A stretch of DNA of 64,000 bases from Cliona cf. orientalis (taxonomy: Eukaryota > Porifera > Demospongiae > Clionaida > Clionaidae), in NCBI GenBank assembly GCA_963930775.1, contig OZ005689.1:6177569-6241568 (forward strand), given 5' to 3'. The translations under genes and the position numbers were made by a program. The notes beneath the pieces were generated by a model. It was not told where the DNA came from, searched no databases, and saw nothing but the letters and a program-made list of their open reading frames with translations. This document shows positions 2,945 through 28,894 of this stretch, one piece after another. The number at the start of each line of letters is the position of its first letter. Positions within the stretch are counted from its first letter, which is position 1.

Positions 2945-3634
2945 CTCAGTGCAGTTAAGGACTGTCTCACCTGTATTTGTCAATGAAATATGCACATTTT
3001 CAGGAGTTAATACTAGTGCTTATCTGACAATTGAGTACTGATCATGATATTGAAATTGAAGCCCAACTCTAGTACTTTCATAATATGAAATAGTAAACCA
3101 CAAATATCTAATCAATTAAGCGGTATAACCGCGATTAACCACGCCCTCTGTAACACTATTTGTAGTTTTCCAACATTGTTCCCGTCAGACTTTTGTTACC
3201 TTAACTAGACAAGGTTAAATCTGAGCTACTTTTCTTGATTTTCACCGAGGGATATTCGTAAGCAACATCGTGGTAAGAAAAAAATCGCAAAAAACGCCAT
3301 TTCAGCTATCCTGACGGGATGATCTTTCGCACACGCCCACAAAGCGGAGCGAGCAGTCAACTTATCCCTCGGCAGATTCTCGATAAATATCTCGAAGTTT
3401 AGCTTTCCATCATTCAAATTGCGAAATAACCCCTGGAACAATGTTGGAACTTGCAGAACGAAAAAAATCGCTCGAATGCTGCAGCTATGCGGCTACACAG
3501 CCGTGGCTTGTACTATGCCACTATCGGGTGACGTCACGTCTAACCGCTAATTGGCCACAAATTTGCACGCTAAGTATATAGCCGTTAGTACGGCGCGCGC
3601 GATAAGACTTGAGACAGTCCTTAAACGCACTGAG
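2945..3634. mobile_element. 690-bp non-autonomous TA-flanked TIR element (MITE) inside the transposase HTH
   Basis: The ends form a 25-bp inverted repeat with 23 matches, starting CTCAGTGC and containing TTAAGGACTGTCTCA. TA dinucleotides flank it (2943-2944 and 3635-3636). Internal CCAACATTGTT / AACAATGTTGG (about 3172 and 3438) give a second fold. No coding capacity is evident. Joining the flanks with one TA restores the transposase frame as GVP-KST, the strongest proof of boundaries. TA duplication fits the Tc1/mariner/pogo superfamily. The minus-strand end ...atacag GTGAGACAG could act as a splice acceptor, so intron-like removal is possible but no good donor is seen. Confidence 0.85.
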
Positions 3635-5645: not shown

Positions 5646-5831
5646 GATAACTTCTGAATCAGCCTAATTGGTCTTTAAAGTGCAGAATGTCGTACTGGAA
5701 AGTCTGAATTAGTCTATGCACAATTCAAACTTGCATTAGCTAGATAGTAAAATATAGCAGAGTTGGGAATGACTACTTCAGAATCTGTGACACTGCATGG
5801 CAGTGCAGACCATTTTTTCAACATACTAATA

Positions 5832-6804
5832 CTAGTGGTGATGAAAATCATCTGTGCGGGGCGAGCCTTTGCAAAAGTCACAAGATTTCTCACAGGCATG
5901 CATGCGCACATTGGGCTGGTAAGCTTACCCCAATAGCTAGGCCTGAGAAGCTACCATGAAAGTGGAAGTATCACAGATTGCTAGTGTAATAGCTATAATC
6001 CAATAATGTTGATCACCTATGCTACATTTAGTAGTCTACATGACATGATCATGAGTCCAAGTACCTGTAGCCAGGCCCTGAGTAGTTTAGACCCTTTTTC
6101 GCCCGACGACCTTTACCTACTCTCTCCACACGCGAAAAAGGGTCTAGCAAAGGTCAGGTTTAATCAAATTTTGTCTGGCCAATCAGATTCAGCTTTTGAA
6201 ATTCATGCAAGCAATTTATGCGTGGGTGTAGAGTAGCAATTGGCAAAAACAGGCACTAGACCAGGCCTACTATGCTTTTAGTGTTTTTAGAGCTTACTTT
6301 CAAACATAATAACATCAGACTGGGCCATCTGCTGCTGTTCTTTTGCTTTTGAGACAAGCGCGCACTCGTATGGCTTCACCTAATGAATTGCATTCCAACA
6401 CTGACCTTTGCTAGACCCTTTTTCGCGTGTGGAGAGAGTAGGTAAAGGTCGTCGGGCGAAAAAGGGTCTAGCTTGATAGACTAGGCCCTGAGAGGATAAG
6501 CCTCCATGCAGTCATCTTCATGCTCAGGAAAGTGGAGTCTACCATTGATGTTAATCGTGGACCTGAGCCTTGCCAGAGCGGTACAGCACTCACCTTTCCA
6601 GTTGTGCCTTGCCTACACGCGAATTGTCTCTCAGATCGATGGTGCAGTGCAGGCGTATGCGCACGCGCATGCATGACGACCATTACCTTACGCGTTCAAA
6701 ATTTAACTCTCTCCTCACTGAAATGATCACCCCACAAACATATATACATATAAAACCGCTTCCTGTACCTCGTGTATTCGGGGCTCGCTCAGGCTCGCCC
6801 CGAA
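5832..6804. mobile_element. Short non-autonomous copy of hairpin-ended element H
   Basis: The left end CTAGTGGTGATGAAAATCAT and right end (hairpin ATTCGGGGC...GCCCCGAAT closing at 6804) match both ends of the H copy at 7403..29464. Between them are the shared segments around 5905-5990 and 6000-6082, continued at 6493-6800. This copy lacks the 21-kb Y insertion and so serves as an empty-site relative; it carries instead a 400-bp MULE-like insertion. Read on the minus strand, H starts TTCGGGG, ends CTAG before a T, and has a GATGA..TCATC hairpin 8 nt before CTAG, which resembles Helitron or Helentron ends. Confidence 0.7.
6083..6482. mobile_element. MULE-like foldback MITE with nested inverted repeats
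   Basis: A 10-bp duplication AGGCCCTGAG flanks it (6073-6082 and 6483-6492), the length expected for Mutator-like elements. Inner TIRs of 70 bp (6088-6157 and 6401-6470) are essentially perfect. Each TIR is itself a partial palindrome, running from TAGACCCTTTTTCGC to GCGAAAAAGGGTCTA. The uninterrupted target is seen at 29139..29148 in the other H copy, which confirms the boundaries. Confidence 0.85.
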
Positions 6805-6841
6805 TTATGTTCTATGGTGATTGAGCGTAGTAGCTAAATAA

Positions 6842-7067: not shown

Positions 7068-7974
7068 TAAGTAACAGTCAAATAAGTATAAAAAGTAATT
7101 GAAAATTAAAGGATGAAGAAGGGATGGTATAGGACCAAAAAATACACAAACAAGATTTGTAGGGATATTAAGGTACCATTTAATTGCGTGGGCGTGAGCG
7201 TCAGGAATGGCTAATTCAATTAGCGAATCGTGAAGGGGCGTGGCCGAAGAGGCCATACGAGTGCTTTTGGTCGAAGGTGGGCGTGTCCAGAATCGGCCAG
7301 GGATGATTATGCGCGTGTAATTAGCGACCGGAAGTGGCCCCTGAAGAAAAGGCCGGTAATTGCCCACATCAAAGCAAGATCAAAGCATTCTTGCTTAACT
7401 ACTAGTGGTGATGAAAATCATTTGTGCGGGGCGAGCCTTCGCAAAAGTCACAAGATTTCTTTGAAAGAACACATGCATGCATGCATGCACACATGGGGTT
7501 GGTAACTACCTCAATAGCTAGGCCTGAGAAGCTACCACGACAGTGAAAGTATCACAGATTGCTAGTACAATAGCTATTATAAACAGTTTCCAAAATAAAT
7601 CCGGATTTTACAATATGATTTTTTACTGCAAAAATGGACCATAAACGGTCAATTTTGAAAATATAAAATATTATTTACAAATAGGGCTAAAAATTAGTCA
7701 AAGAAGCAAAGGAATAAAAGTTACAAAAATCACATTTTCAGGTCTATTGTACAATTTCACATTAGTTTGCAAGATTGAACAAAATTCTGACAATGATATT
7801 TTCAAATAATATTGGTGCCAATGATGGTCAAATTAAAGCAACAAAAACCAGAAACAAAAGTTGCTAGGAATAATATCATGAAATGGACAACAGATAGTAT
7901 TAAATGTTTGTAGTATACATATTTGAAATTGGAAGTCTCAGTGATCTTGGTCCTCCTTGTATACGTAGCTAGGT

Positions 7975-8440
7975 CTTTGAAATTTCTAGGCCCATGCAGT
8001 TAGCTACATGTCGAAGATCTCTGAATCCGAATATAGCTATCATTGAGACCGACCTAGAAATTTCAAAGCCCTTCGATGTATGACTGCATGGGCCTAGAAA
8101 TTTCAAAGACCTAGCTACAGGGAGACAGACCCTTGAAATTTCAAAGCCCTTCGATGTGTAACTGCATTTGCCTAGAAATTTCAAAGACCTAGCTACAGGG
8201 AGACTGACCCTTGAAATTTCAAAGCCCTTTGATGTGTGACTGCATGGACCTAGAAATTTCAAAGACCTAATTGCTACAGGGAGACCGACCCTTGAAATTT
8301 CAAAGCCCTTCGATGTGTGACTGCATGCTGGGCCTAGAAATTTCAAAGCCCTTCGATGTGTGATTGCATGGGCCAAGAAATTTCAAAGAGTCTGACCTAG
8401 CTAAAGGGAAACTGATCCTTGAAATTTCAAAGACCTTCAA
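7975..8440. repeat. Subterminal minisatellite of element Y (left)
   Basis: About five diverged units of ~85-90 bp, each with GAAATTTC palindromes in contexts such as CCTAGAAATTTCAAAGACC and CCTTGAAATTTCAAAGCCC. A 135-codon open frame on the minus strand is repeat-driven (GFEISR reiterated) and I do not count it as a gene. Related TTGAAATTTCAA motifs recur at 27797-28390 near the other end of Y. Confidence 0.7.
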
Positions 8441-9095
8441 TGTGACCGAGACTTTTGGTCAGTTTGTAATGTCTGTCTAAGTAGCTAATTTTACATTCTA
8501 AGTAATTGTTGTGTTCCTTTAAACAAGTTGCAGACCCCCGGGCTATCGGTGCCTACTAATGTCTGTGCAAGTGGGATTCTAGTTACATACTATTGTTATG
8601 CTATCATAATTTGTTCTATTGTTTCTTTATATCCAGGATAACAACATCGTGCATGTCAGGTTCACAGAGACTGTTAAAAAGCAAGCCATACTATATCATC
8701 TTCCATCAATATTAATTCTTATTTCCTATTGTGTTATTTTTAGTGATTATTGTAGTAGCCTCATACCTAGGCCACTCCTGAAGCATGGGAACAGCCTGGG
8801 TGTGAGTGTGATGAAAATTGTCAATGGTTTACTACATGTGAATATTAATGCTGTGACCAGATAAGTATGCAGGCTAGTAGCACTTGCAATAGTATTGAAG
8901 TTTATTAGCAAGTACTCAGAATATCCCATCCATGTCCCATGGCTAGGTTCCACACGTAGCTAGCAAATAGAAAAATACTCTGGGGGGGGGGGGGGGGGGG
9001 AGATCCATAGGGATCAGAAAAGTATAAAAATTAATGCAAGTTTAATTAGGGGGGAAAGAGAGAGATGCAACAAAAATTGATTGTGCACCTAGGAT
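8441..9095. other. Non-coding stretch of Y with a G19 run
   Basis: No supported gene. 8982-9000 is an uninterrupted run of 19 G, able to form a G-quadruplex. Around 8757-8800 a segment (CCTCATACCTAGGCC) resembles dispersed repeat termini. Confidence 0.4.
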
Positions 9096-10903
9096 TTAGC
9101 TACTATCTAATTTGTTATATAAATCTCTTAGTTGGTCCTTCACTATCTTTGATAATGAACCACCTTTCGTTAGTTTTATATCACGATGGATGATTTCATC
9201 AACAGGCAGAGTTTCAGTCCAGGCCACCAATGATTTTCTTTTGTCTTTGTACGTATAAACTCTCCACCTCCCCGTCCAAGTACCATCAAACCATTTAATG
9301 GTTACTTGGCTTCCCTTCACCTCCAGTACTTCTCCAATCTGGGGTCATTCACAGTGATATTTTTGACAGAGGAGTGCCACTAGCTCTCCCTCTTGATTCT
9401 CCTATGTAATAATTTAAGAAAAGGACATTAATTAGGTTCAATAATAATAATTGCAAGTGTACATGCATGACATTGTTTAAGTTATGATTGTGTATACTTA
9501 GTGTGATGAAATGAACTCTGCCTCTTTATTATCAGATTCTGTTTTACGTTTAAATCATTATTCGGTTATTAACATTACTATCATAACTAAGTCACATTTT
9601 AAATTTCACTGATCTCAGAGATTCAGGTGCTATGTTCATCTAATTACCAACTTAAAGACTAGCTAGTACTACCAGCCAATCCACATTCATTGTCCTAATG
9701 TTCAGTGCTGCATTGAGCCCCACCCCATTACATACTATATGTCCTATGCAGTCTTGCAAAACTGACATAGCCAATCCACATTATATCCAATGCTATACTA
9801 AAAATATTATCCATAATGTGTTCTGAAAATAAGCTCCGAGTCGAGTCTACGCTCAAGCTTATAAAATTAATAACTCACCCTCTCTGAATGGGTGCTTGTA
9901 TGTGAGGTTGTTGCTGGTGGCCTTGCCTTCTTTATTGCTTGAAGATTGACCTTTTAGAACAAACACGTTCACTTTATTAGCAAGGTATCAGTACACATTG
10001 CACATTATGGGGACTGTGGTAAACACTTAAAGTAATATTATTGCTACCTCGTCCTGATTGTTTTCCCGTTAGCTAGTACGTGAATATAGATGTTAAACCA
10101 GTACCATAGTATGATCCGCAATAAGTTAGGCCACTGTAACTTGATTCCTTGTTTCCCGTCACCCGCCCGCATGCTTATTTTGTAGCCGCCTCAAAATTCA
10201 TTATGCACTGCTACAGCAAGCCAGCTAGTCATGCTCCTTGTAAACCACAGGATGTGGGCAAGGTTTAGTGGTTACATAATGATATTCATGCATAATGAAT
10301 AATGAATAATGACCGCCCGCCCGCATGCTCTCCAGGCATAGGAGAGGACGGGAAACAAGCATTTAAGTTACGGTGGCCTTAGTTAGGTCATAATACGCAC
10401 ATGCAATAAAAATAGTTTGGGCACTCAAGATCTAGCTAAATATTGTTACAGTAGCTAACTCACTTTCAGAATCCGCTGTGGAGAAAGATATTTGTTTTGG
10501 CTTCATAGCAACTAAATTAGTTGTTGATGGTGTCATCATCGGATCAGATACTTTTACCGGTGTTAGACATGCTGGTCCAGGTTGCACGTCAACTGATTCC
10601 ACAATACAACGGAGTTTGCAACACTTGGCTCCTTATCACAATCTGATCCTGGAGTCCATTCAACAACACTACCACTCGGATCAGAGCAACCATGGGCACT
10701 CCATTGTGATAAAACTGAAGATACTGTTACATCAAGTGATTGTTGGCTGTCATGAGTGCATTTCGGTATCCATACCGCAATTGAATCACTGGACCCATTT
10801 TCCTTTAATGGTGTGCTCATGATTCGAGGTGACCAATCGAGTATTTCTGACTGATCAGATGGTACAATTTCCCACTCCATTGTAAGGTAGCGACCAAATG
10901 TAT
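9096..10903 (-). pseudogene. Minus-strand gene set of element Y, unknown function, with in-frame stop
   Basis: I reconstruct exons from splice signals. The last, 9401 to 9096, follows acatag and encodes ENQEGELVALLCQKY, an in-frame TGA at 9347-9345, then PQIGEVLEVKGSQVTIKWFD and a ~70-residue basic, tryptophan-rich end that looks like a small beta-barrel (Tudor/chromo-like) domain; this is shape-based only. A middle exon lies at 9950-9879 (acceptor ctaaaag, donor gtgagt). An upstream exon starts at 10903 after tttcag and encodes TFGRYLTMEWEIVPSD and a Ser/Trp/Pro-rich stretch to about 10560, continuing open in another frame to about 10470. A PIF MITE (10129..10378) sits in the intron between. 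The 5' part was not found. The stop suggests a decayed copy; I do not recognise the family. Confidence 0.45.
10129..10378. mobile_element. PIF/Harbinger-type MITE, copy 2
   Basis: 250 bp, nearly identical to 4514..4756, with TIR GGCCACTGTAACTT and TTA duplications (10126-10128, 10379-10381). It differs from copy 1 mainly by one extra AATGAAT unit near 10305. Confidence 0.88.
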
Positions 10904-12206
10904 CTGAAATATATATATATATATGTTACAGAATGGCATGGTTATACAGAAAACATGCACGCCGATACTCGATATTGAGTATTCTTGTCTAGCGCGCATG
11001 CCCGAGCTCACGCGTGCACGCTCGATGACACGTGTCCGTTTTTTTGCGCATGCTCGAGCTCCAAGGTATCTGCTATAGCTACGTGCTACGTAATTTACCA
11101 CAGAAATTCCGTCGGGCCATTCTTTTTATATAGTATGCCTATCATAAATCACTATCCATGATAAAACATATTTACTCTATGGTTCTCTTCAATATTATAC
11201 CTATTTGACCCTGATAATAGTAACTAACACACACTAAATTATGGCATTGGAAATATCTATAATGTAATTAAGGGTTAGCTATAGAAACCATAGGTCAGTG
11301 CATGGCTGCCAGCTCAAGCGAGCTGAAGTGATACCCAGGTTCTACTTTGGACTGTCATGAAAATCAAGTTTGTTTAACGCCGAGAAATTGTATATAGCTA
11401 CCTGCCCCCGTTTTTAAACGTGGACCTGCTCAGAATCACCTATTTTTCCTAGGACCTACAGGTCATACCAAATCTGTACCGCAGGGCTTGGCAAAGCAAA
11501 AAAAATGCCAGTTAACTTCAGCCATGCAGCGCTCTGAATATTCCACCGTGAAAGAACGATACGTTTATTGTACATCATACTGTAAGTGTAATACATACCT
11601 TCATGATCAGTAGCCTGTAAGCAACGAGATTCACCTCGATCAGCACGACGAACTATGATCAAATATTAGCTCCTGGTAAAGACGATCAATCGGTATTAAA
11701 AGGAAGTGAAGCTCCATGATACACAAAACTCCAGAGAATAGCACTAACAATTCAAATAAGAGCAGCTAGCTGCAGTCCCTCTGTACCGCTTGCATTAGCA
11801 CTGCGCATGCGCGTATCGTATATAGAAGTACAGCTACAGAGAGCGCGCATGCACGGTACATGTACATGTGTATGAATGCATGCAGCATGCATGCATGCTC
11901 TGCACGTGCATCTAATCAGAGTGCATGGACATGATGGCTGAATATGCATGCCCATCGTGATAACGAATGAAAGACTATAATTACTATCTTAATTATCATA
12001 ATTGTAAATCTGACAAGATCCTGAATAGAACCTAAATTGTAAGACCTCTTGCTGGCGCCTATCTAAATTGAACTGCACGTGTAGCAGCTAGCTATGATCC
12101 GACAACTGTCACGGTAGCTAGCTACGATCGATCCGCTAGCCTTCGTGTGTGGACAGTATAGCTACTGTGAGTCGACCAATCACTGGAAATCTCTAGCGTG
12201 TACAGC
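10904..12206. promoter_or_regulatory. Putative divergent intergenic region of element Y
   Basis: This separates the minus-strand set from the plus-strand gene at 12207. It is locally CpG- and GCATGC-rich (10975-11060, 11810-11900), including GCACTGCGCATGCGCG at about 11798. I could not identify a TATA box or the first minus-strand exon, which should lie here. Confidence 0.3.
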
Positions 12207-12826
12207 ATGCCTTTGCCTAAGCTGTGGTATTTGGAGTACATTTCCGATCGAAATGCCATCTATATGATGTCTGGAAAATTCGGCAAAGACTCTTCTGAAA
12301 ACCTGAATGACTCAAAGGAACGTGAGAGCTGTGCTGAAAAATCTTCGCCGAATTCGGAACTTGGACCAGTTCTTGAGGTTCGTGTCCACGAAGAAGCAAA
12401 ACTGAAAGTAAGTCATGCTCATGCAACCACATGATTGGCAGCTAGGAATTAAAATTTTATGTTGCTCAACTTGAAATGCAGTTTAGGTTTTCTAATGGAG
12501 ATCCCAGAGCAAAGGTGCTAGCTAAATTTTCTTTGGAGAAATCATCGTTTTCAAAGCAGTTTCGTGATGCCAAGACTGCATCAGAATTCTTGAAAATCTG
12601 GGATAAGCTGGTTATTCCCTACCTAAAGAGTAATGGGGACTACAAACCGCCAATGACAGCCAATGCAACTCCTACAAGCACTGCCGCTGGCAAGAGAAGC
12701 TTGGAGCCTCAAAGCCTTACAACTACTGTAACAGCACATGGTCCAGTTCTACCATCACCAAAGCGAGCAAAAATGGATGAAGACAATGATTCAGAAGCCT
12801 CTATTGATGCTGAGATTGAAAAATGA
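12207..12826 (+). CDS. Small nuclear-looking protein encoded in element Y, unknown family
   Basis: Two exons: 12207-12407 (donor gtaagt) and 12482-12826 (acceptor aaatgcag), phase 0, total 181 residues. I chose ATG 12207 as the only in-frame Met at the start; the frame upstream opens only from GTG. The N-terminal part is acidic and serine-rich. The middle (VLAKFSLEKSSFSKQF ... FLKIWDKLVIPYL) is amphipathic helix-like. The C-terminal tail has PSPKRAKMDEDND, resembling a nuclear localisation signal followed by an acidic patch. A strong GGTAAGTTG donor a few bases after the stop (12833) suggests a 3' UTR intron or continuation in a different form, perhaps towards 13644. I do not recognise a homologue. 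Confidence 0.5.
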
Positions 12827-12839
12827 TTTGTTGGTAAGT

Positions 12840-13450
12840 TGAGTGAAGGGGTGGGGCTCAATGCAGCACTTTTTATATTAGTGGAATTAATTATTATGGT
12901 TATGTGAGGGGTGGGGCTCAATTCAGTATTTATCATTGGTGGGATTAGCCGATAGGACTTTGTTTGCTGATTGCAACTTTGCATGACTATATGTTACACG
13001 GAATATCCCATAATTAATAGCGTGCAGAACATAGCTCCATTCATTTTTGTGTGGAGTTTTGTGGGGCTCATTATAATTGTGTGGAGGGGCCTATAGATAC
13101 TTTATGTTGGCCGATTGCAACCTTGCATGGCTATTATTATGATGCACGGAGTAGCTAGCCCATAATATTATGCAGGGCATGGCTCTTGTATGTGAGGCAG
13201 TGGGGCTCAATGCAGCATTAAATCAGCTTTGCATGAAAGCATGTAGTCTACCCTGTAATAAACATTGCGCAGGGAATGGCTAAATAATGTGAAGGGGTGG
13301 GGCTCAATTCAGCATTAATATCAGTGGAATTGGCCACTAGGGCTTTATGTTTGCCGATTGCAACTTTGCACGACTATAATATTATAATATTGCAGGAGCG
13401 AATGCACTCCTGAATATTGTGATACATGGAATAGCCCATAATTAATAGTA
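12840..13450. repeat. Diverged tandem repeat with GGGGTGGGGCTCAAT motif
   Basis: GTGGGGCTCAAT-type motifs recur at about 12852, 12909, 13061, 13201 and 13299, together with GCCGATTGCAACTTTGCA-like segments at about 12950, 13110 and 13360. Periods are irregular, so it is an old array. Confidence 0.55.
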
Positions 13451-13643
13451 TACACGAAAATTAGACCCCATGAAAATTACCCGCCATACGGTATAATATA
13501 CCCCCTCATGCAGGGAACATAATATTAACCTCGGCCATCTAAAAAGAAAATAGACCCCAAAACTTGTTATTGTCTCCATGGCAACCATCCAGATTTCTAT
13601 TAAGTAGTGTACTTATTATTATTATTGTTATTCTTGTTTTCAG

Positions 13644-16600
13644 GATCTTCTCAACTTTCTCCTTCAATTACTATGGTAATCTTATGCCACTGGTCATCTT
13701 CAGGGGAGCAAATCATCTGTTATCCTCAGCAAACAAAGATCAAAGGCAATCTCTTGACTCTTGAAGATGATTCTCTCACATCAAGCCAGATAGAGCCACA
13801 CCAAAACCAGCACTTTATGAAGCACTCTTACACCTCTTATCCACTCGTGGCCAGTGGGTATTGGACCCAATAGGTGGAAATGGTGAGTTCATTGACTGGT
13901 TTGAACACGCTTATGAAAGCATGACAGCAATAATTACAAGTCTAAAATGAATGTTATCATAATAATAGTATACTTTGATGTGTATAAATCTTGTACAGTC
14001 GAGCCTCCGAACAAAGGACACTTTGGGAACAGGCCCCTTGTCCTTTGTTCGGAGGTTGTCCCTATCATGATTTTTCAATCCATTTTGATTGTATTATCCT
14101 TAACAAGTTAGTAAATGCACTGAAATGCATGATAAGAGCAGTAGAGATGATAATCAAGTGGTTGGTATGTTCTGTTTTCAGTGTCAACATAGCACAGGCT
14201 GAATTTTTTTTGTTTCTGAAGTACTGGCTACTCCGGATTCAAGGAGAGTTTTATTATCGCGCATGCGGCATAATATCGCGACCGCCTAGATTGCGGCAAA
14301 AGTGGGCGTGGCACCGTTAATTTAAGGGCGTGGTTTCCGCGTGTCCGCTATTTAGAGGCAGTTTTGCATTGAAAAGTCACGTTGGGAGCTTGGATCTTGT
14401 CCGCTGTCCGGAATCGAGAAGCGTCCGCTTCTCGGAGGTTGCTAATGTACTATAACTATGCTAAATTCAATCGGTAACACGGCACTTGTCCGCTATAGGG
14501 AGGTTGTCTGCTTCTCGGAGGGTCCGTTATCGGAGGCTCGACTGTATACCAATTACAAGTATTACAAGTGAAATAGGCACCTGAGTTTGAAATACCCTTC
14601 TGAGTTGAAATACCTATCTGACTTTGTGTATGTATACTATTAGCCTATGATAGTTAGGTTGTATGTTAAATTTGGATAAATAGCACTCCGAAATAGGCAT
14701 TTGGTTCATCAAATTGTACTCACTATCGCTCATACAATTTTTGAACCAAATACCTATTTCAGAGTGCTATTTTACCAAAATTCAACATAAAACCTCACTA
14801 TTACCTCAGCAGCTTTAACCACTAAGTCTTATACACACCATAATAATTATTATGTTGTCATCTGTGGTCAGGGTGACTTTTGTAGCATCTACTTCCAAGC
14901 ACAATTCACATTCAGGAGGGGGAGGGGGTGTATAGTGTGTGTTTAATAAAATTAATAAAGAGGGAGAACAGTATCCATTTAAGATCCGGAATATTTTTTT
15001 TCCGGATTCTGTAAAAATTTACACTTTAATGAACCGAGGGTAGCTTAGGATCTAAGCCACCCTCGGCTTAGGATCTAAGCCAACCTCCGCTTAGCTTAGA
15101 ATCTAAGCCAGTGCCATCAGCTTAGGATCTAAGCCAACCTCCGCTTAGCTTATATAGCCAGTACCATCAGCTTAGGATCTAAGCCACTAGTATCTAAGCC
15201 ACCCTCCGCTTAGGATCTAAGCCACTAGTATCTAAGACAACCTTGGTTTAGAATCTAAGCCAACCTCAGCTGCTTAGGATCTAAGCCACTAATATCTAAG
15301 ACAACCTTGGCTTAGAATCTAAGCCAACCTCAGCTGCTTAGGATCTAAGCCACTAGTATCTAAGACAACCTCAGCTTAGGATCTAAGCCATTCTCAGCTT
15401 AGCATTTAAGCCAGTTCCATCAGCTTAGGGTCTAAGCCAGTCATGACTTGGGAATTACAGCTGAGGATCTAAGTCACCCGCAATGTTGGCACAATAGCTT
15501 GCCTTATAATTAAGCCACAAACTACTTGAGCATAACCACTAGCCTACTTGAGATACAAACCACGTGACGTGGTCAGCAGCTCATCACCAAGACCATTAAT
15601 TAAAGTATGTACCTCAGTGTACCTGAGCACTATTGTTACATTGTATGCTGTTGACTTCTATGCAGGGATTTTTTTTGTTCATTTGCATTTACTATAATGT
15701 ATTTTCAAGTTATGTTATGAACATACACCTATTTTGGTGAATTTTAATAAAATCCCTTTTCTTGAAATCAGTCAATTGGCAATGCATGATGATACAATAG
15801 GGGACAATTATGATAACTACCATAATAATATTAAAACTTGCAAGATTTAGTGTGTTGAATGATGCTAATCAATAACTAGGAATAAATCCAGTGCTTATTA
15901 AATCTGTTCAATGTACACATATAGATGAGGATTTTGAGTGTAACTATTTCGGTATAGTACACATCTTGCAGCATTCTTGGTCTCATTTGTACACCCCACA
16001 CTTTTTAGGTACCAAACCCATACCAGTACATTTGTTCCTGTGTCTGTAACCATAATCTAGAGTGGTGTAAACAGTGGGCATGGCATTGGTGACTTTTGAG
16101 TGTGTGAGGATGAGCATTTTGTGTATACTTCATGTCAATCGATACTGTACACATTTTGTAGCTTTTGGTCTCATTTGTACACCCAACAGTTTCTGGGCAC
16201 CAATATCAAATCAGTACCTTTCTTCTTGTGTCTATAACCATAATCTAGAGTGGTGTAAACAGAGGACATGGTATTGGTGACTTCTGCGTGTATGCATTCT
16301 GAGAATTTTCCATGCAATCATCTACATGTATACATAGTACACATTTCGAAGCATTTTAGCTCTCAATTCTTCACATAGCATCCCTTAAGTTCCAAACTTG
16401 ATCAGCACCCTTATCTTGATGTTAGCAATCATATTTCTGAGTATATTGACTGGCGATGTGGTTGAGGCATGTTCTGTGCATGTGAGTATGAGAATATCTT
16501 GTGCACATGCATTCACAGTAATCGGTACAATTATTATAGCTTTTTAGCTCTCAATTTCACATACTACATCTCTGGAGTGCCAGACTTGATCAGTATCTTT

Positions 16601-19600
16601 ATTTTGATGTCTTTTATCATAACCTAGAGTGGTGTAAACAGTAGGCATGGCATTGGTGACTTTTGAGTGTGTGAGGATGAACATTTTGTGTGTACTTCAA
16701 GTTAATCGATACTGTACACATCTAGTAGCTTTTTTGGTCAAATTTGTACACCCCACACTTTCCTAGTATCAAAACCAGACCAGTACCTTTATTTTGATGT
16801 CTATATTCATAATCTATAGTGGTGTAAATAGTGGACATGGTATTGGTGACTTCTGTGTTTGTGAGGATGAGCATTATTTTAGTGTGTACTTCATGTCAAT
16901 CAATGCCGTACACACATTGTAGCTTTTTTGGTCTAATTTGTACACCCCACACTTTTCAAGTATCAAAACCAGACCACTACCTTTATTTTGATGTCTATAT
17001 TTATAATCTATAGTGGTGTAAACATTGGACATGGTATTGGTGACTTCTGTGTTTGTGAGGATGAGCATTATTTTAGTGTGTACTTCATGTCAATCGATGC
17101 CGTACACATCTTGTAGCTTTTTTGGTCAAATTTGTACACCCCACACTTTCCTAGTATCAAAACCAGACCAGTACCTTTATTTTGATGTCTATATTCATAA
17201 TCTATAGTGGTGTAAACAGTGGACATGGTATTGGTGACTTCTGTGTGTGTGAGGATGAGCATTATTAATTTTTAGTGTGTACTTCATGTCAATCAATGCT
17301 GTACACATTTTGTAGCTTTTTTGGTCTAATTTGTACACCCCACACTTTCCAAGTATCAAAACCAGACCACTACCTTTATTTTGATGTCTATATTTATAAT
17401 CTATGGTGGTGTAAACATTGGACATGGTATTGGTGACTTCTGTGTTTGTGAGGATGAGCATTATTTTAGTGTGTACTTCATGTCAATCGATGCCGTACAC
17501 ATCTTGTAGCTTTTTTGGTCTAATTTGTACACCCCACACTTTCCTAGTATCAAAACCAGACCAGTACCTTTATTTTGATGTCTATATTCATAATCTATAG
17601 TGGTGTAAACAGTGGACATGGTATTGGTGACTTCTGTGTGTGTGAGGATGAGCATTATTAATTTTTAGTGTGTACTTCATGTCAATCGATGCTGTACACA
17701 TCTTGTAGCTTTTTTGGTCTAATTTGTACACCCCACACTTTCCAAGTATCAAAACCAGACCACTACCTTTATTTTGATGTCTATATTTATAATCTATAGT
17801 GGTGTAAACATTGGACATGGTATTGGTGACTTCTGTGTGTGTGAGGATGAGCATTTTGTGTGTACTTCATGTCAATCGATACCGTACACATCTTGTAGCT
17901 TTTCTGGTCAAATTTGTACACCCCACACTTTCCTAGTATCAAAACCAGACCAGTACCTTTATTTTGATGTCTATATTCATAATCTATAGTGGTGTAAACA
18001 GTGGACATGGTATTGGTGACTTCTGTGTGTGTGAGGATGAGCATTATTAATTTTTAGTGTGTACTTCATGTCAATCAATGCTGTACACATTTTGTAGCTT
18101 TTTTGGTCTAATTTGTACACCCCACACTTTCCAAGTATCAAAACCAGACCACTACCTTTATTTTGATGTCTATATTTATAATCTATGGTGGTGTAAACAT
18201 TGGACATGGTATTGGTGACTTCTGTGTTTGTGAGGATGAGCATTATTTTAGTGTGTACTTCATGTCAATCGATGCCGTACACATCTTGTAGCTTTTTTGG
18301 TCTAATTTGTACACCCCACACTTTCCTAGTATCAAAACCAGACCAGTACCTTTATTTTGATGTCTATATTCATAATCTATAGTGGTGTAAACAGTGGACA
18401 TGGTATTGGTGACTTCTGTGTGTGTGAGGATGAGCATTATTAATTTTTAGTGTGTACTTCATGTCAATCGATGCTGTACACATCTTGTAGCTTTTTTGGT
18501 CTAATTTGTACACCCCACACTTTCCAAGTATCAAAACCAGACCAGTACCTTTATTTTGATGTCTATATTTATAATCTATAGTGGTGTAAACATTGGACAT
18601 GGTATTGGTGACTTCTGTGTGTGTGAGGATGAGCATTTTGTGTGTACTTCATGTCAATCGATACCGTACACATCTTGTAGCTTTTCTGGTCAAATTTGTA
18701 CACCCCACACTTTCCTAGTATCAAAACCAGACCAGTACCTTTATTTTGATGTCTATATTCATAATCTATAGTGGTGTAAACAGTGGAAATGGTATTGGTG
18801 ATTTCTGTGTGTGTGTATTCTAAGTTTCCATATTATGTGCATACATCAGTATTTGGTACAATTTTCATAGCTTTTAAGCTCTAAGATCTTCACACATCAT
18901 CTCTGAAGTTCCAAATTTGATCAGTACCTTTGTCTTGATGTTAAAAATCATATTTCTGAGTTTCGTCATCTGGCGATGTGGTTGAGGCATGTTCTGTACA
19001 TGTGAGTATGAGAATTTCCTGTGTACCTGCATGCATTCACAGTAATACATGTAGGTCCGATTTTCACAGCATTTCAGCTCTAATATCTTAATATAACATC
19101 CCTGAAGTTCCAAACTTGGTGAGTACCATTGATTTGATGTTAATAATCATATTTCTGACTTTCGTTAACTAGCGATGTGGTTGAAGCATGTTATGCACAT
19201 GTGAGTATGAGAATTACCTATAGCACATGCATGCATTCACAGTTACTGTAATCGATGCAATTTTAGTAGCTTTTTAGCTCTCAATTCCACATACAACATC
19301 TCTGGAGTACCAGACTTGATCAGTACCTTTGTTCTTGTGTCTATAACCTTAATCTAGAATGGTGTAAACAGTGGACATGACATTGGTGACTTACTCTGCA
19401 TGTGTATTCTAAGAATTTTCCATGTGTGTACACACATTCACAGTAACCAAGGTACAATTAACCTTCATAGCTTTTTAGCTTCACATATCATCTATAAATT
19501 TCCAAACTTGAACAGTACCTTTATCTTCATGTCAACAATCATATTCCTGAGTTTCGTGAACTGGCGATGTGGTTGATGATTGTTCTGTACATCTGAGTAT

Positions 19601-22600
19601 GAGAATATCCTGTTCACATGCATTCACGGTACTCGATACAATTTTTATAGCTTTTTAGCTCTCAATTCCACATACAACATCTCTGGAGTACTAGACTTGA
19701 TCAGTATCTTTATTTTGATGTCTTTAACCATAATCTAGAGTGGTGTAAACAGTAGGCATGGCATTGGTGACTTTTGAGTGTGTGAGGAAGAGCATTTTGT
19801 GTGTACTTCATATCAATTGGTACTGTACACATCTTGTAGGTTTCTTGGTCTCGTTTGTACACTCCATACTTTCTAGGTACTAGAACCATACCAGTACCTT
19901 TATTCTTATGTCTATAACCATAATCTAGAGTGGTGTAAACAGTGGACATGACATTGGTGACTTCTGTGTGTGTGAGGATTAGCATTTTGTGTGTACTTCA
20001 TATTAATCGATACTGTGCACATATCTTGTAGCTTTCTTGGTCACACTTGTACACCCCACACTTTCTAGGTACCAAAACCATACCAGTACAGTTGTTCTTG
20101 TGTCTATAACCTTAATCTTGAATGGTGTAAACAGTGGACATGACATTGGTGACTTACTCTGCGTGTGTATTCTAAGAATTTTCCAGGTGTGTACACACAT
20201 TCACAGTAACCAAGGTACAATTAACCTTCATAGCTTTTTAGCTCTTAATTCTTCACATATCATCTATAAATTTCCAAACTTGAACAGTACCTTTATCTTC
20301 ATGTCAACAATCATATTCCTGAGTTTCGTGAACTGGCGATGTGGTTGATGATTGTTCTGTACATCTGAGTATGAGAATATCCTGTTTACATGCATTCACG
20401 GTACTCGGTACAATTTTTATAGCTTTTTAGCTCTCAATTCCACATACAACATCTCTGGAGTGCCAGACTTGATCAGTATCTTTATTTTGATGTCTATAAC
20501 CATAATCTAGAGTGGTGTAAACAGTGGACATGGTATTGGTGACTTCTGTGTGTGTGAGGATGAGCATTTAGTGTGTACTTCATGTCAATCGATACTGTAC
20601 ACATCTTGTAGCTTTTTTGGTCTAATTTGTACACCCCATACTTTCTAGGTACCAAAACCTGACCAGTACCTTCGTTTTTATGTCTGTATTCATAATCTAA
20701 AGTGGTGTAAACAGTAGTCAAAAGGAAAGATGGTTTATGTATGAGAATTCTAATCAATGGAGAATTTTTTTGTCAGTATGTTACGAGATAGGAAACACAA
20801 GCAACCTCATACAACTCAAAATCAAATTAATAAATCTTTGAACCTTAAATTATAATACGTGTATTATAATAATATCATACACTATTGTGATTGAGCATCT
20901 ATACATTATGTGGTTTTACTAGTGTGTACTTCACCTAATTGTATAAGGCACTTGAACTACACCATGTGTGTGCATCAATGTGTACTCTGTGGTGACCACA
21001 ATATCATAATCATAGTATTAAGAGGGGCATATGCTCTGTGGAATTATGAAGTACTGCACAGAGGAAAACTACTACCAATCACTAGCTCAGTACCACCATA
21101 CATGCTATTATTATGGCTGGTTCATTTTCCCTATCACTTACTTCTTAGTATGCCTACCTTTTGGTTACATGTAGGTGTTAATTAGAGGGCATTGATCGTT
21201 TACATGATCATGTAAATATGTATACATGTGTATATGTACACATGTAGTGTATCTATAGACAGAATTACATGTGCATGTGCACAGCACATGCCATGTAATA
21301 TACATGCATATGATATGAGTGTGAAAGTAAGGTATGTGTGTACATGTACATACCTTAAATCAAACCCAAACCTAACCCAAAGCCAACCCAAACCCAACCC
21401 AAACCCAAACCCACTCACGTCACACACACACACAAACACACTCACACACACGTGCACGCACTTCATAGCTTAATTGGAAATTAACATCCTCTCTCACAGC
21501 CTATTTAGCACAACATGTGAGCACATACAGAGGTAAAGTAAAAATGTGGCGTGTACAAATGAGACTAAGAAAGCTACAATGATAATATTATGTGTACAGT
21601 ACCGATTAATAATATTATATGAAGTACACACAAAATACTCATCCTCACACACACAGAAGTCACCAATGCCATGTCTACTGTTTACACCACTCTAGACTAT
21701 GGTTATAGACATAACACCAAAGTTACTGATCAAGTCTGGTGCTCCAGAGATGTTGTATGTGGAACTGACACCTAAAAAGCTATAAAAATCGAACTAATTA
21801 TACTGTGAATGCATGTGTACAGGAAACTCTCATACTCACATGTGCAGAACATGCCTCAACCACATTGCCAGTCAATGAAACTCAGAAATAATAAGATGAT
21901 TAACATTAAAATAAAGATACTGATCAAGTTTGGAACTTCAGGGATGTTGTGTGAAGAATTGAGAGCTAAAGAGCTACAAAAATTGTAGGATTACTGTGAA
22001 TGTGTGTACACATGGAAAATTCTTAGAATACATACACACAGAAGTCACCAATGTCATGTCCACTGTTTACACCACTCTAGATTATGAATATAGACACAAG
22101 AATAAAGGTACTGGTATTGCGTTGGTACCTAAAAAGTGTGGGGTGTACAAATGAGACCATAAGAAAGCTACAAGATTTGTACATGTACATGCAGTATCGA
22201 TTGATATGAAGTACACACAAAATGCTCATCCTCTCACACACAGAAGTAACCAATACAATGTCTACTGTTTATACCACCCTAGATTATGAATATAGACATC
22301 AAAACAAAGTTACTTGTATGGTTTAAATGCTTAAAAAGTATGGGGTGCACAAATGAGACCAAGAGAACTACAAGATGTGTATAGTATCGATTAATATGAA
22401 GTACACACAAAATGCTCATCCTCACACACACAGAAGTCACCAATGTCATGTCCACTGTTTACACCATTCTAGATTAAGGTTATAGACACAAGAACAAAGG
22501 TACTGATCAAGTCTGGTACTCCAGAGATGTTGTATGTGGAATTGAGAGCTAAAAAGCTACTAAAATTGCATCGATTACAGTAACTGTGAATGCATGCATG

Positions 22601-25600
22601 TGCTATAGATAATTCTCATACTCACATGTGCATAACATGCTTCAACCCCATTGCTAGTTAACGAAAGTCAGAAATATGATTATTAACATCAAATCAATGG
22701 TACTCACCAAGTTTGGAACTTCAGGGATGTTATATTAAGATTTTAGAGCTGAAGTGCTATAAAAATAGTACCGATTACTGTGAATGTATGCATGCAGGTG
22801 CATAAGATATTCTCATACTCAGATGTACAAAACAATCCTCAACCACATCGCCAGTTGACTAAACTCAGAAATATGATTGTTAACATCAAGACAAAGGTGC
22901 TGATCAAATTTGGAACTTCAGAGATGATGTGAAGAATATAGACTTTAAAAGCTTTGAAAATTGTACCAAATACTGATGTATGCACATAATATGGAAACTT
23001 AGAATACACACGCAGAGTAAGTCACCAATACCATGCCCACTGTTTACACCACTATAGATTATGAATATAGACATCAAAATAAAGGTACTGATCTGGTTTT
23101 GATACTAGGAAAGTGTGGGGTGTACAAATTTGACCAAAAAAGCTACAAGATGTGTACAGTATCGATTGACATGAAGTACACACAAAATGCTCATCCTCAC
23201 ACACACAGAAGTCACCAATACCATGTCCAATGTTTACACCACTATAGATTATAAATATAGACATCAAAATAAAGGTACTGGTCTGGTTTTGATACTTGGA
23301 AAGTGTGGGGTGTACAAATTAGACCAAAAAAGCTACAAGATGTGTACAGCATCGATTGACATGAAGTACACACTAAAAATTAATAATGCTCATCCTCACA
23401 CACACAGAAGTCACCAATACCATGTCCACTGTTTACACCACTATAGATTATGAATATAGACATCAAAATAAAGGTACTGGTCTGGTTTTGATACTAGGAA
23501 AGTGTGGGGTGTACAAATTAGACCAAAAAAGCTAGAAGATGTGTACAGCATCAATTGACATGAAGTACACACTAAAATAATGCTCATCCTCACAAACACA
23601 GAAGTCACCAATACCATGTCCACTGTTTACACCACTCTAGAATATGAATATAGACATCAAAATAAAGGTACTGATCTGGTTTTGATACTTGGAAAGTGTG
23701 GGGTGTACAAATTAGACCAAAAAAGCTAGAAGATGTGTACAGTATTGATTAACTTGAAGTACACACAAAATGTTCATCCTCACACACTCAAAAGTCACCA
23801 ATGCCATGCCTACTGTTTACACCACTCTAGGTTATGATAAAAGACATCAAAATAAAGATACTGATCAAGTCTGGCACTCCAGAGATGTTGTATGTGGAAT
23901 TGAGAGCTAAAAAGCTATAAAAATTGTACCGATTACTGTGATTGCATGTGCACAGGATATTCTCATACTCACATGTACAGAACATACCTCAATCACATCG
24001 CGAGTCAACGAAACTCACAAGTATGATTGTTAACATCAAGATACAGGTACTGTTCAAGTTTGAAGTTTAGAGATGATGTTGAAAGAATTAAGAGCTAAAA
24101 AGCTATGAAAGTTATATTTTGGTTACTGTGAATGTGTGTACACACAATGTCATGGAAAATTCTTAGAATACACATGCAGAGTAAGTCACCAATATCATGT
24201 CCACTGTTTACACCATTCTAGATTAAGGTTATAGACACAAGAACAACTGTACTGGTATGGTTCTAGTACCTAGAAAGTGTGGAGTGTACAAACGAGACCA
24301 AGAAAGCTACATTGATATGCACAGTACCGATTGACATGAAGTACACACAAAATACTCATCCTCACACACTCAAAAGTCACTAATGTACCATGTCTACTGT
24401 TTACACCATTCTAGATTATGGTTATAGACACAAGAACAAATGTACTGATCAAGTCTTGTACTCCAGAGATATTGCATGTGGAATTGAGAGCTAAAAATCT
24501 CTAAAAATTGCACCCATTACTGTGAATGCATATGCACAGGATATTCTCATACTCACATATGCAGAACATTCCTCAACCACATCGCCAGTCGACGAAACTT
24601 AGAAATATGATTGTTAACATTGAGATAGAGTTACTGATCAAATTTGGAACTTCTGGGATGTCGTGTGAAGAATTTAGAGCTCAAAAGCAAGAAATGTGTA
24701 TATAGTACGTACTACATGTAGCTGATTGCATAGAAAATTCTTAGAATACATACAAAGAAGTCACCAGTACCATGTCCACTGTTTACACCACTCTAGATTA
24801 TGAATATAGACACAAGAACAAAAGTACTGGTCTGACCTTGGCACTTAGAAAGTGTGGAGTGTACAAATGAGGCCAAGAAAGCTACGAGATGCATGTGTAC
24901 AGTATCGATTAACATGAAGTACACATAAAATGCTCATCCTCACACACACAGAAGTCACCAATACCATGTCCATTGTTTACACCACTCTAGATTATGAATA
25001 TAGACACAAAAACAAATGTACTGATCTGATTTTGGTACCTAGAAAAAGTAGGGTGTACAAATGAGACCAAGAAAGCTACAAGATGTGTACGGCATAGGCG
25101 TAGGAACCGGGGGGGCTGGGGGGGCTACAGCCCCCCCAATATTCCAGGAAGGGAGGCAGAGCCCCCTTTATTCTCCAGCCCAGTATTGCCACGGTTACAA
25201 CACAGATTTTTAAACATTTATCAGGCCTGATTATGAGTAAATATGCCTCAATAGCTTCCGAATCTATTCTACTCGACTTACAATTCATTTTTTCATCGAG
25301 AAACTTGTGATAGCATCCTCGATCGTGCCAAAATGGACGTGGTTTAACACAAAGTGGGCGTGGCCGTAAAGTTTCGCGCGCGCTTCGCGCGCAGTTGGAT
25401 ATTCAGCCCCTCCAACCCTCAATATCTTCCTACGCCTATGTACGGTATCGATTAAGTAAACATGAAGTATGTACACAAATGCTCATCCTCACACACACAG
25501 AAGTCACCAATGTCATGTCCACTGTTTACACCTTTCTAGATTAAGGTTATAGACACAAGAACAAATGTACTGGTATGGTTTTGGTACCTAGAAAGTGTGG

Positions 25601-28544
25601 GGTGTACAAGTGTAACCAAAAAGCTACAATATGTGTACATGTAGTACCGATTAATATGAAGTAGTATACACACAAAATGCTCATCCTCACACACACAGAA
25701 GTCACCAATACCATGTCCACTGTTTACACCACTCTAGATTATAATTATAGACACAAGAACAAAGCTACTGGTCAAGTCTTGTACTCCAGAGATGTTGTAT
25801 GTGGAATTGAGAGCTAAAAAACTATGAAAATTTTACCGAATAATATACATACATGTGCACATGAATTCTCATACTTGCATGTGCAGAACATGCTTCAACC
25901 ACATCGCCAGTCAATGAAACTTAGAATTATGATTGTTAACATCAAGACAAAGGTACTGTTCAAGTTTGGAACTTCAGAGATCATGTGTGAAGAATTGAGG
26001 GCTAAAAAGCTATAAAAATTGTACCGATTACTGTGAATGTACGTATATGTACGTACATAGAAATTTAGAATACACAGACACAGAAGTCACCAATGCCATG
26101 TCTACTGTTTACACCACTCTAGATTATGAATATAGACACAAAAACAAAGGTACTGGTCTAATTTTGTTACCTAGAAAGTGTTGGGTGTATAAATGAGACC
26201 AAAAAGTTACCATAACAAAGGTGTGTACTAGCTGTACTGGACTGATTTCAAGAAAGGGGATTTAATTATTAAAACGTACCAAAATATGTGTATGTTTAAT
26301 ACAACATAACTTGAAAATATTTAATATTATCATAATAAATGCAAATGAACAAAAAAAATGGATTGAAACAAGATGATTTGTGACAAAATTGTCTCACAAA
26401 CACGAATAATAATAGTTTAATGGTCTTGGTGGTGAGCTGCTGACCACGTGGCTTGTATCTCAAGTAGGCAAAGTGGTTATGCTCAAGTAGTTTGTGGCTT
26501 ATAAGGTAAGCTATTGTGCCAACATCAGTGGTGGCTTAGATCCTAAGCTGTAATTCCTACTCAAAGGATCTGAGCCACTCTCCACTTACATGTAGCGCTA
26601 TTCTGAGCTTAAAATCTAAGCCAGAGCAATCAGCTTAGGATCTAAGCCAACCTCGGCTTAGGATCTAAGCCACCATCAAGCCAGCGCCATAAATAGGATC
26701 TAAGTTACCCTCTGCTTAGGATCTAAGCCAATCATGATTTAATTCTAAGCAGAGGTTGGCTTAGATTCTACGCTGAGGGTGGCTTAGATCCTAAGCTGAT
26801 GGCACTGGCTTAGATTCTAAGCTGAAAATGGCTAAGCGGATTGAGAGTGGCTTAGATCCTAAGCCGAGGGTGGCTTAGATCCTAAGCTGATGGTACTGGC
26901 TTAGATTCTAAGCTAAGCGGAGGTTGGCTTAGATCCTAAGCCGAGGGTGGCTTAGATCCTAAGCTGATGGCACTGGCTTAGATTCTAAGCTGAAAATGGC
27001 TAAGCGGAGAGTGGCTTAGATCCTAAGCCAAGTGTGGCTTAGATCCTAAGCAGAGGTTGGCTTAGATCCTAAGCGGAGGGTGGCTTAGATTCTAAGCTGA
27101 TGGTACTGGCTTAGATTCTAAGCTAAGCGGAGATTGGCTTAGATCCTAAGCTGATGGTACTGGCTTAGATTCTAAGCTAAGCGGAGATTGGCTTAGATCC
27201 TAAGCTGATGGTACTGGCTTAGATTCTAAGCTAAGCGCAGGTTGGCTTAGATCCTAAGCGGAGGGTGGCTTAGATCCTAAGCGGAGCGTGGCTTAGATCC
27301 TAAGCTGATGGTACTGGCTTAGATCCTAAGCCACCCTCGGTTCTTTAAAGTGTAAATTTTTACAGAATCCGGAAAAAAAATATTCCGGATCTTAAATGGA
27401 TACTGTTGGAGGGAGAGTGTCCTATGAATAGCCTTGCATAACTCCTCTCTGCCTTGCATTCCGCCTTCATTAGATATTTTCTTGTGTGTGTATGAAAGAG
27501 AGAGGAGGATAGAGAACATAAAAAAGAGCCTTATAATAATATAGGTTAACTTATAGGCAACCTAAATGTCTCTGCAGAATCCCAAGTGAAATGCATGCAG
27601 TTTCTACTGAGCCCTGACGTCTTTTAAATCACATAGAAATAGACTATCAGCATCTAACCACTTTGGATGCCTGAAGCTTGACAAAATTAATAAACTGTTG
27701 CCTAGCAACAAACATAACCACAGGTCATTAATGAAAGGTAGACATTCCATTTGTACCAATCAGATCACTGTATTTATCACAAATAGGACCCGGGACTTGA
27801 AATTTCAATTACTATTATATTATTCGGTAACCAAACTATCTTGCAAGCACTCTATTATTATGTACTATGATGTATTGATGATAATAAGACCCTATAGGCT
27901 TGAACTTCAAATCATAAATAGAATCTGATGGTAGTTGAAATTTCAAGCCCCTTCTAGTATAATATTGTTATGATTGACAAAATTAGATGGTAATTGAAAT
28001 TTCAAGTCCCTACACAGAATTTCAGTGCCATGTGCATCCTACCTTGTAATGAAAGATAGACATTCCATTTCTACCAATCAGATCACTGTATTTGTTACAA
28101 ATAGGACCCAGGACTTGGAAATTTCAATTACCATTATATTCGGCAGTACTCCAACTATCTTGCAAGCACTCTATTATTATGATAATATTGTATGTATTGA
28201 TGATAATAAGACCCTATGGGATGACTTCAAGTCATAAATAGAATCTGATGGTAGTTGAAATTTCAAGCCCCTTTAGTTAGTATATTATGATTGACAAAAT
28301 TAGACGGTAATTGAAATTCAAGTCCCTACACTGAATTTTAGTTCCATGTGCATACTACTTTGTTGAACTTTCAGACTTGAAATTTCAATTCTTGTATTCC
28401 TTTTTATTCACTGCAGGTTATCTAACTAAAGTGTCCCTCAATCTTGGCCGCAACGTTATCTGTTGCGAGTCAAAGGGGGAATACATTGGGATGATACAAA
28501 AGAGTATATTAGAGCTAAAAGAGACAATTAAGGGACAGGACTAA
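13644..28544 (+). CDS. DNA-methyltransferase-like gene split by a 14.5-kb intron (partial)
   Basis: Exon 13644-13882 ends with ALYEALLHLLSTRGQWVLDP then IGGN and a G at the donor GGTGAGT (13883). Exon 28417-28544 follows ttcactgcag and reads YLTKVSLNLGRNVICCESKG and EYIGMIQKSILELK to a TAA. Both junctions are phase 1 and rebuild DPIGGNGYLT. The combined pattern, VLDP(F/I)GG(S/N)G followed by a strand ending xICxExxxEYxxM, is SAM-binding motif I plus motif II of beta-class N6/N4 DNA methyltransferases. Upstream in the first exon (MVILCHWSSSGEQIICYPQQ) a different frame is open, so a one-base frame change near 13790-13805 or another splice is needed. The catalytic (S/D)PP motif and the 5' exons are not visible. 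Activity therefore cannot be claimed; it may be a decayed or truncated gene. Confidence 0.5.
13996..14544. mobile_element. pogo/Tigger-like MITE with CAGTCGAGCCTCCGA ends
   Basis: 549 bp with TIR CAGTCGAGCCTCCGA and its complement, flanked by TA (13994-13995, 14545-14546). Subterminal copies of GTCCGCT..CTCGGAGGTT recur inside. TA duplication and CAGT ends fit pogo/Tigger. It lies in the large methyltransferase intron. Confidence 0.8.
14640..14815. repeat. Foldback hairpin element
   Basis: Imperfect inverted arms: GGTTGTATGTTAAATTTGG...AGCACTCCGAAATAGG on the left and CCTATTTCAGAGTGCT...CCAAAATTCAACATAAAACC on the right, with a ~40-nt loop. Likely a small MITE; no duplication defined. Confidence 0.6.
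15030..15470. repeat. TTAGGATCTAAGCC minisatellite, left arm of F
   Basis: About twenty copies of the palindromic-core motif CTTAGGATCTAAGCC (core TTAGATCCTAA on the other strand) separated by short variable linkers such as ACCCTCGG, AACCTCCG and AGTGCCATCAG. The mirror array is at 26520-27340. Confidence 0.85.
16050..20740. repeat. ~195-bp satellite array, left arm of F
   Basis: Monomers begin around GTGTAAACAGTGGACATGG. Starts at 17016, 17210, 17409, 17603, 17802, 17992, 18191, 18385, 18584 and 18774 give lengths 194, 199, 194, 199, 190, 199, 194, 199, 190. The 194/199/190/199 set forms a 782-bp higher-order repeat (17409 versus 18191). Flanking monomers are diverged and mixed with a second, ~180-bp type (TTTTTAGCTCTCAATTCCAC). 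Many 60-88-codon frames on both strands are by-products of the repeat. Confidence 0.85.
20760..21540. other. Unpaired centre of foldback F
   Basis: No recognised gene. It has an ATGTAC/ACATGT-rich stretch (21200-21310), a degenerate AACCC-type run (21360-21415) and a CA run (21421-21452). Confidence 0.5.
21545..26170. repeat. ~195-bp satellite array, right arm of F (inverted)
   Basis: The same monomer as in the left arm, on the opposite strand (CCATGTCCACTGTTTACACC at many positions). The regular core (23040-23700) is shorter than on the left; the rest are diverged units. A MITE (25093..25440) interrupts it. Confidence 0.85.
25093..25440. mobile_element. 348-bp MITE with CATAGGCGTAGGA ends inside the satellite
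   Basis: TIR CATAGGCGTAGGA / TCCTACGCCTATG, flanked by TACGG (25088-25092, 25441-25445). Its interior (GTGGGCGTGGCCGTAAA, CGCGCGCTTCGCGCGC) resembles that of the 334-bp element at 40384..40717, so the two may be related families. Confidence 0.75.
26520..27340. repeat. TTAGATCCTAAGC minisatellite, right arm of F
   Basis: Mirror of 15030-15470 but about twice as long, with a sub-period seen as GATGGTACTGGCTTAGATTC repeated three to four times at 27100-27230. Confidence 0.85.
27731..28366. repeat. 318-bp tandem duplication, subterminal region of Y (right)
   Basis: Two copies starting ATGAAAG(G/A)TAGACATTCC (27731, 28049), each holding three GAAATTTC palindromes, mostly as (C/G)TTGAAATTTCAA or ATTGAAATTTCAAG. 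These echo the motif of the left subterminal array (7975-8440). Confidence 0.75.
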
Positions 28545-28894
28545 CAAAAAATATTATTTGAAGTCACAAACATATTTAGCTGCATTTTACAAATTTGTAT
28601 TGTTAACCATTTTGTATCTATTTAGCATGCTATTTGGAAATATGCAGACAACTTTTCCATAATTGACTATTCTTAGGTTCATGATTTCCTAATGTTGAAT
28701 GTCAAAATAGTACGTTTTTAGTGGCATCTTTATTTACATTTGCAAGATTAACAAAAAAGGTGAACACAAAGGAACAATATTTGCAACAATGAAGAAAATT
28801 AGTTCAAAATGCTCTCTAGTCTTGCATAAATAACCAAAAAATGTTAATATTTGTCATTTTGTAAAATCCGGGTAAAAATTGGAACCTGTTTATA
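28545..28894. other. 3' flank of the methyltransferase-like gene to the Y end
   Basis: AT-rich, no ORF. It should hold the 3' UTR; the last ~50 bp are the right inverted end of Y. Confidence 0.4.

Follow-up and report, generated by a model that had tools for sequence, protein, structure and literature searches.

The 64,000-nucleotide window analysed here (C1:6177569-6241568 of a 217-Mb assembly, in which the genome-wide searches were also made) contains a terminal inverted repeat (TIR) element with remnants of two divergent genes: a leftward gene whose fuller relatives encode the Pfam family DUF7869, and a rightward gene that in its relatives combines a ParB-type domain with a DNA methylase (Table 1). 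The element occupies 7582-28890 within a host repeat, H. Its left terminus is AACAGTTTCC... and its right terminus ...GGAACCTGTT, and a TATA target-site duplication adjoins both directly; the limits of 7578 and 28894 given in an earlier, sequence-only reading of the window include this duplication exactly. The two ends match at 36 of 60 positions in an ungapped comparison, most strongly over the first ~35. An empty copy of H, placed by that reading at 5832-6804, was likewise recovered (5827-6807): the left flank of the element follows it to 5996 and the right flank resumes at 5994, the two halves joining within 3 bp at the insertion point. Approximately 0.4 kb of the empty copy (6083-6482) is missing from the other H copy; this segment is flanked by inverted GACCCTTTTTCGC-type repeats (by eye) and is perhaps a small separate insertion.

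The sequence-only reading also implied that other copies share both ends, and searches with the element ends recovered two besides the window. The left 323 bp yielded 10 genome matches including the window (four others at 95-97% and five weaker) and the right 323 bp yielded 5 (two others at 94-97% and two weaker). Both ends occur together at three places, i.e. the window, C9 (L014, 7,238 bp), and C1:2.31 Mb (L015, 9,171 bp). A 4-bp duplication was found in four of five two-ended insertions (TATA, GAAA, TATA, and GGAG), with L014 as the exception. A tandem repeat with GAAATTTCAAAG units, located near the left end (7969-8450), is matched in L014-L017.

Table 1. Features of the TIR element, its nested insertion, and the related empty site (window positions)
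Feature	Position	Strand	Remark
Empty relative of host repeat H	5827..6807	+	
Left target-site duplication TATA	7578..7581		
Left TIR, AACAGTTTCC...CCGGATTTTACA	7582..7620	+	
C-terminal SH3/Tudor-like tail exon of leftward (DUF7869) gene	9099..9401	-	one internal stop in window copy
Deletion junction	10075..10378		L017 has ~5.1 kb here (DUF7869 exons and kinase frame), missing from window
5' exon of leftward gene (MEWEIV...)	10462..10880	-	tblastn
Common upstream region between both 5' exons	10881..12206		divergent promoter presumed from position
Exon 1 of rightward (ParB-methylase) gene	12207..12411	+	GTAAGT donor
Exon 2 of rightward gene	12480..12826	+	ends in early stop in window copy
Junction where ParB-like and middle exons are missing	13413..13453	+	these exons at L015 5143-6940
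Methylase exon, first part of S-adenosylmethionine (SAM) motif I (DPIGGNG)	13771..13893	+	interrupted by stop in window copy
GGAG duplication, left of nested element	14963..14966		
Nested foldback-like element, AACAG...CTGTT, inverted arrays of ~190-bp repeats	14967..27407		longest listed open frame 103 codons
GGAG duplication, right of nested element	27408..27411		
Last exon of rightward gene, with remainder of methylase motif I, C-terminus, and stop	28410..28544	+	
Right TIR	28851..28890	-	
Right target-site duplication TATA	28891..28894		

The sequence-only reading of a single 21-kb unit is correct as to the TIR element but not as to its unity, because 12.4 kb of the 21.3-kb outer element is a separate nested insertion and the remainder amounts to ~8.9 kb. 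The nested element ends in AACAGTATCC...GGATACTGTT, its first bases being identical to those of the outer element, and its inverted repeat is perfect over 61 bp, counted from CAGT. L015 carries the corresponding empty site, with 32 identical bases across the joint followed by one mismatch (by eye), and the ~190-bp repeats are 72-75% similar to those of the elements that we designate family B (E down to 1e-40). On the basis of the shared end bases, the GGAG duplication, the empty site in L015, and the family B-like repeats, the nested element therefore appears to be a non-autonomous relative inserted into the outer one. An 8-bp duplication was considered and dropped, since GGAG fits with ends at AACAG/CTGTT and the empty site in L015 agrees. 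In family B itself, three copies (L038, L040, and L041) carry long 189-bp repeat arrays upstream of the rightward gene, with 22.5 copies in one stretch; scanning for 20-of-30 matches in the 10 kb upstream of each of three copies, and around L039, revealed no left end of this family.

Comparison of exons bears out the two gene sets diverging from a common upstream region that had been recognised from the sequence (leftward exons within 9099-10880 and rightward exons within 12207-28544), and in relatives both genes also sit on either side of such a region. The readable parts in the window are, however, remnants. Approximately 5.1 kb present in L017 (C4) at window 10.1-10.4 kb is missing from the window, from L016, and from L014, a short copy similar to that in the window, and an insert of ~250 bp (10130-10378) is specific to the window relative to L014 and L016. 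L015 lacks the divergent region but possesses the ParB-like and middle exons that are missing from the window. Because these sister copies, L015 and L017, hold blocks that the window lacks, we regard the window element as an internally deleted, non-autonomous derivative of a TIR DNA transposon with two genes, with a probability of about 0.83.

The extra block of L017 encodes DUF7869 (PF25273), with E-values of 1.8e-38 for one exon and 8.9e-11 for another and a score of 132.5 bits against a Pfam cut-off of 26. In the window copy the DUF7869 core is deleted, and the C-terminal exon of the same gene specifies the SH3/Tudor-like domain; the small Tudor-like domain and the SAM-dependent methyltransferase named in the sequence-only reading are thus both present. 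A tail exon lies downstream of DUF7869 at 24 of 31 compared places (31 of 33 tail matches were used, the two omitted being second pieces of exons already counted, and one DUF7869 place is common to two tail matches); the 27 DUF7869 places used were picked with the tail places in view, and such a subset can only lower the count. The order pre-core, core, post-core, and tail is likewise kept in L047 of family B, and the sequences of L015 and L017 agree up to shortly before the DUF7869 exons. Pfam lists the family as of unknown function, a search of the DUF7869 profile against PDB gave nothing meaningful, and no paper naming DUF7869 was found in the open-access literature. The family has a conserved pattern, D / DN / GHTHEDID, and the fold predicted for one relative is of low confidence. 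We infer a role for the DUF7869 protein as the D-D-D/E transposase of the element family, with a putative DDE fold and a possible membership in Sola1. The lack of a recognised transposase reported earlier accordingly describes the window copy and L014 but not the family; copies encoding a standard transposase family, which would speak against the sequence-only reading, are half in evidence, in that L017 does encode a transposase-like protein, albeit one from a family of 'unknown function'.

Between its 5' exon and its DUF7869 exons, L017 contains an uninterrupted protein-kinase open reading frame of ~360 amino acids (L017:6980-8065, minus strand; Pkinase E 1.5e-45), which we take to be CDC7-like and which is possibly a captured host gene. 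It was dropped as a family component, having one genome match at E 1e-15 (150 of 511 candidates scored) and being absent from the family B loci compared. An equal DUF7869 score and a 699-codon frame were observed at five places (C10:3523104, C12:1152776, C12:3968323, C14:6120840, and C14:7343911), one of which (L051) encodes 695 amino acids from ATG. No ParB match lies near any of the five, which perhaps represent a second, recently active DUF7869 family.

The rightward gene consists, in relatives, of an N-terminal part that resembles nothing known (its exons gave no match in Pfam), a ParB-CTPase-fold domain, a linker, and a methylase. In the window's own family the last is a beta-class N6/N4 DNA methylase (PF01555), scoring 29.0 bits in the L015 exons against a cut-off of 26.7 and 24.7 bits, under that cut-off, in the L014 exons. 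A fold test assigned the preceding domain to the ParB-CTPase/sulfiredoxin fold (alignment without L055 and L058, with the family B row entered as two exons). By sequence, the ParB exon gave only weak matches in PDB, Pfam, PHROGs, and NCBIfam (sulfiredoxin, E 1.7; DUF6551, 0.044; two ParB families of PHROGs, 0.13 and 0.32); tblastn of the window family's exon against a phage collection found no match (E up to 1), and a search of IMG/VR gave 12 pattern matches, 0 of them confirmed. Judging from the exon order in L015, the ParB fold and the N6/N4 methylase would belong to one gene. Purifying selection acts on the ParB exon (pairs of at least 60 codons and >45% identity; L058 left out), many of 27 ParB-type loci in the genome have uninterrupted ParB exons, and equal match scores recur at distant places, e.g. 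C2:10.12, C1:16.63, and C1:6.52 Mb. At L044, a ParB/DUF7869 element whose ParB exon was found with the L015 exon as query and stands outside the 27 loci, retrotransposon-like gag and reverse-transcriptase frames (1080-3249, by eye) lie between that exon and a weak methylase match 13 kb off.

The two genes are paired throughout the genome. Among the matches listed (150 of 165 for DUF7869), to which all counts of pairs given here refer, at least 20 of the 27 ParB-type loci have a DUF7869 match within 30 kb, compared with a mean of 2.2 and a maximum of 14 loci in 2000 circular shifts (contigs whose size was not known were taken as 9 Mb). The genes are arranged head-to-head in 19 of the 20 pairs, C1:23579213 being the sole same-strand pair; the chance of at least 19 at one in four is 5.5e-11, a value that overstates the significance because copies within a family do not count as independent. 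One family B copy has its ParB 24 kb from DUF7869. No listed DUF7869 match lies within 30 kb at C1:2316310 (L015), C1:26313356, C10:5745910, C11:6478535, C11:6748240, C2:4426521, and C6:4462679, although pre-core, post-core, and tail matches were found at C11:6478535.

Could the DUF7869 block of L017 instead be a nested transposon of unrelated origin, so that the window family has just the ParB-methylase and the Tudor protein and is moved by something else? Among the close copies L014-L017, DUF7869 occurs only in L017, which also carries the kinase frame that has no other match at E 1e-15, but the downstream tail exons, the gene order in L047, the agreement of L015 with L017 almost to the DUF7869 exons, and the head-to-head pairs make this unlikely. 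The view taken in the sequence-only reading, of a transposase-less element with a methyltransferase as its main product, suits the window copy and L014 as they stand and is highly improbable for a family whose fuller relatives carry DUF7869. We give just as little credence to a dispersed, immobile host gene family, which would accommodate the purifying selection on the ParB exon but not the TIRs, the 4-bp duplications, the empty site, the copies on several contigs, or the equal scores at far-apart places.

As to class, Sola and Sola1 DNA transposons have TIRs and a 4-bp target-site duplication, the length found here in four of the five two-ended insertions, and piggyBac and Kolobok, which duplicate TTAA, were rejected because none of our duplications has this sequence. 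The TIRs and the 4-bp duplication also argue against DIRS retroelements, for whose tyrosine recombinase and reverse transcriptase no dedicated search was made. For hAT and Zisupton, PMC12730594 gives a duplication of 8 bp, with 5-8 bp in variants of hAT, and both were rejected on the same 4-bp length. A doubtful but possible alternative is that DUF7869 defines a separate superfamily, not related to Sola, which gained its ParB-methylase independently of the algal cases; the 4-bp duplication, being of Sola size, speaks against this. In its favour, Pfam gives DUF7869 no known function, the likeness to Sola is drawn from description, and TET/JBP genes are reported, in PMC12730594, to move between transposon superfamilies. 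On the other side, PMC12477816 describes the same unusual opposite-strand gene pair in Sola1-1_Ec32, and nested insertions also in its giant families.

In the mechanism that we propose for the two-gene transposon, the DUF7869 protein would cut at the AACAG/CTGTT ends and insert the element with a 4-bp stagger (cut-and-paste), and the ParB-methylase would load onto element DNA and methylate adenine N6 or cytosine N4. Element copies marked in this manner might be aided in transposition or might resist silencing, and the window copy would move solely in trans, if at all. More speculatively, the ParB-methylase could be an ancient partner gene, co-inherited within a single lineage of transposons found in both algae and animals, and could act like a bacterial partition clamp, with nucleotide-dependent ParB loading at the ends or at the ~190-bp arrays, spreading, and N6A or N4C marks that distinguish element from host DNA; the 190-bp arrays of family B and of the nested element would then be parS-like loading sites.

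To our knowledge, the pairing of a transposase with a ParB-methylase is known only from algal transposons. Profile matches above cut-off in the host genome include 7 for Wnt at 3 places and 17 for integrin beta. Wnt genes are an animal trait, and because the host has them, the ParB-methylase/transposase arrangement probably extends to an animal. No report of such a transposon in an animal was seen among the open-access titles and abstract beginnings listed, which covered part of the hits, a weak negative since the Ectocarpus case is visible only inside the full text. Apparently new here are the link to DUF7869 and the presumed animal host, whereas the ParB-methylase transposon type itself is already known. 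These data show that transposons carrying a ParB-DNA-methylase gene of bacterial style occur in an apparent animal genome and provide DUF7869 with a probable transposase role. With some 27 loci of ParB type, this single genome offers material for asking whether transposons write N6-methyladenine or N4-methylcytosine on their own DNA.

Among known systems, PMC12477816 describes Sola1-1_Ec32 of the brown alga Ectocarpus as a 21.5-kb giant DNA transposon encoding a ParB-like and N4mC/N6mA methyltransferase protein opposite its transposase, and reports that its giant families often have nested insertions and pseudogenised transposases. A methyltransferase in a DNA element, thought unusual in the sequence-only reading, is therefore of a type already reported, and it is the animal setting that is apparently new. 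The same paper, citing other work, mentions ParB-methylase proteins in green and red algal transposons and giant EnSpm elements with accessory genes in red algae; the former share with our element the type of accessory protein but have other hosts. ParB-CTPase folds fused to N6_N4 methylases are also known in phages, according to PMC12704722, with the same two domains in one protein and a link to mobile DNA, but in a phage or prophage setting. Other transposons likewise bring a DNA-modifying enzyme with them, but both the enzymes and the classes of transposon differ from those described here. Compared by description, the present family resembles Sola1-1_Ec32 in being a giant element with a nested insertion and in the parts that it combines, i.e. 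a ParB fold and an N6/N4 methylase (both in L015) opposite a candidate transposase (DUF7869, in 19 of 20 pairs), and differs from it in that its host has Wnt genes and its transposase candidate is DUF7869 with an SH3/Tudor-like tail.
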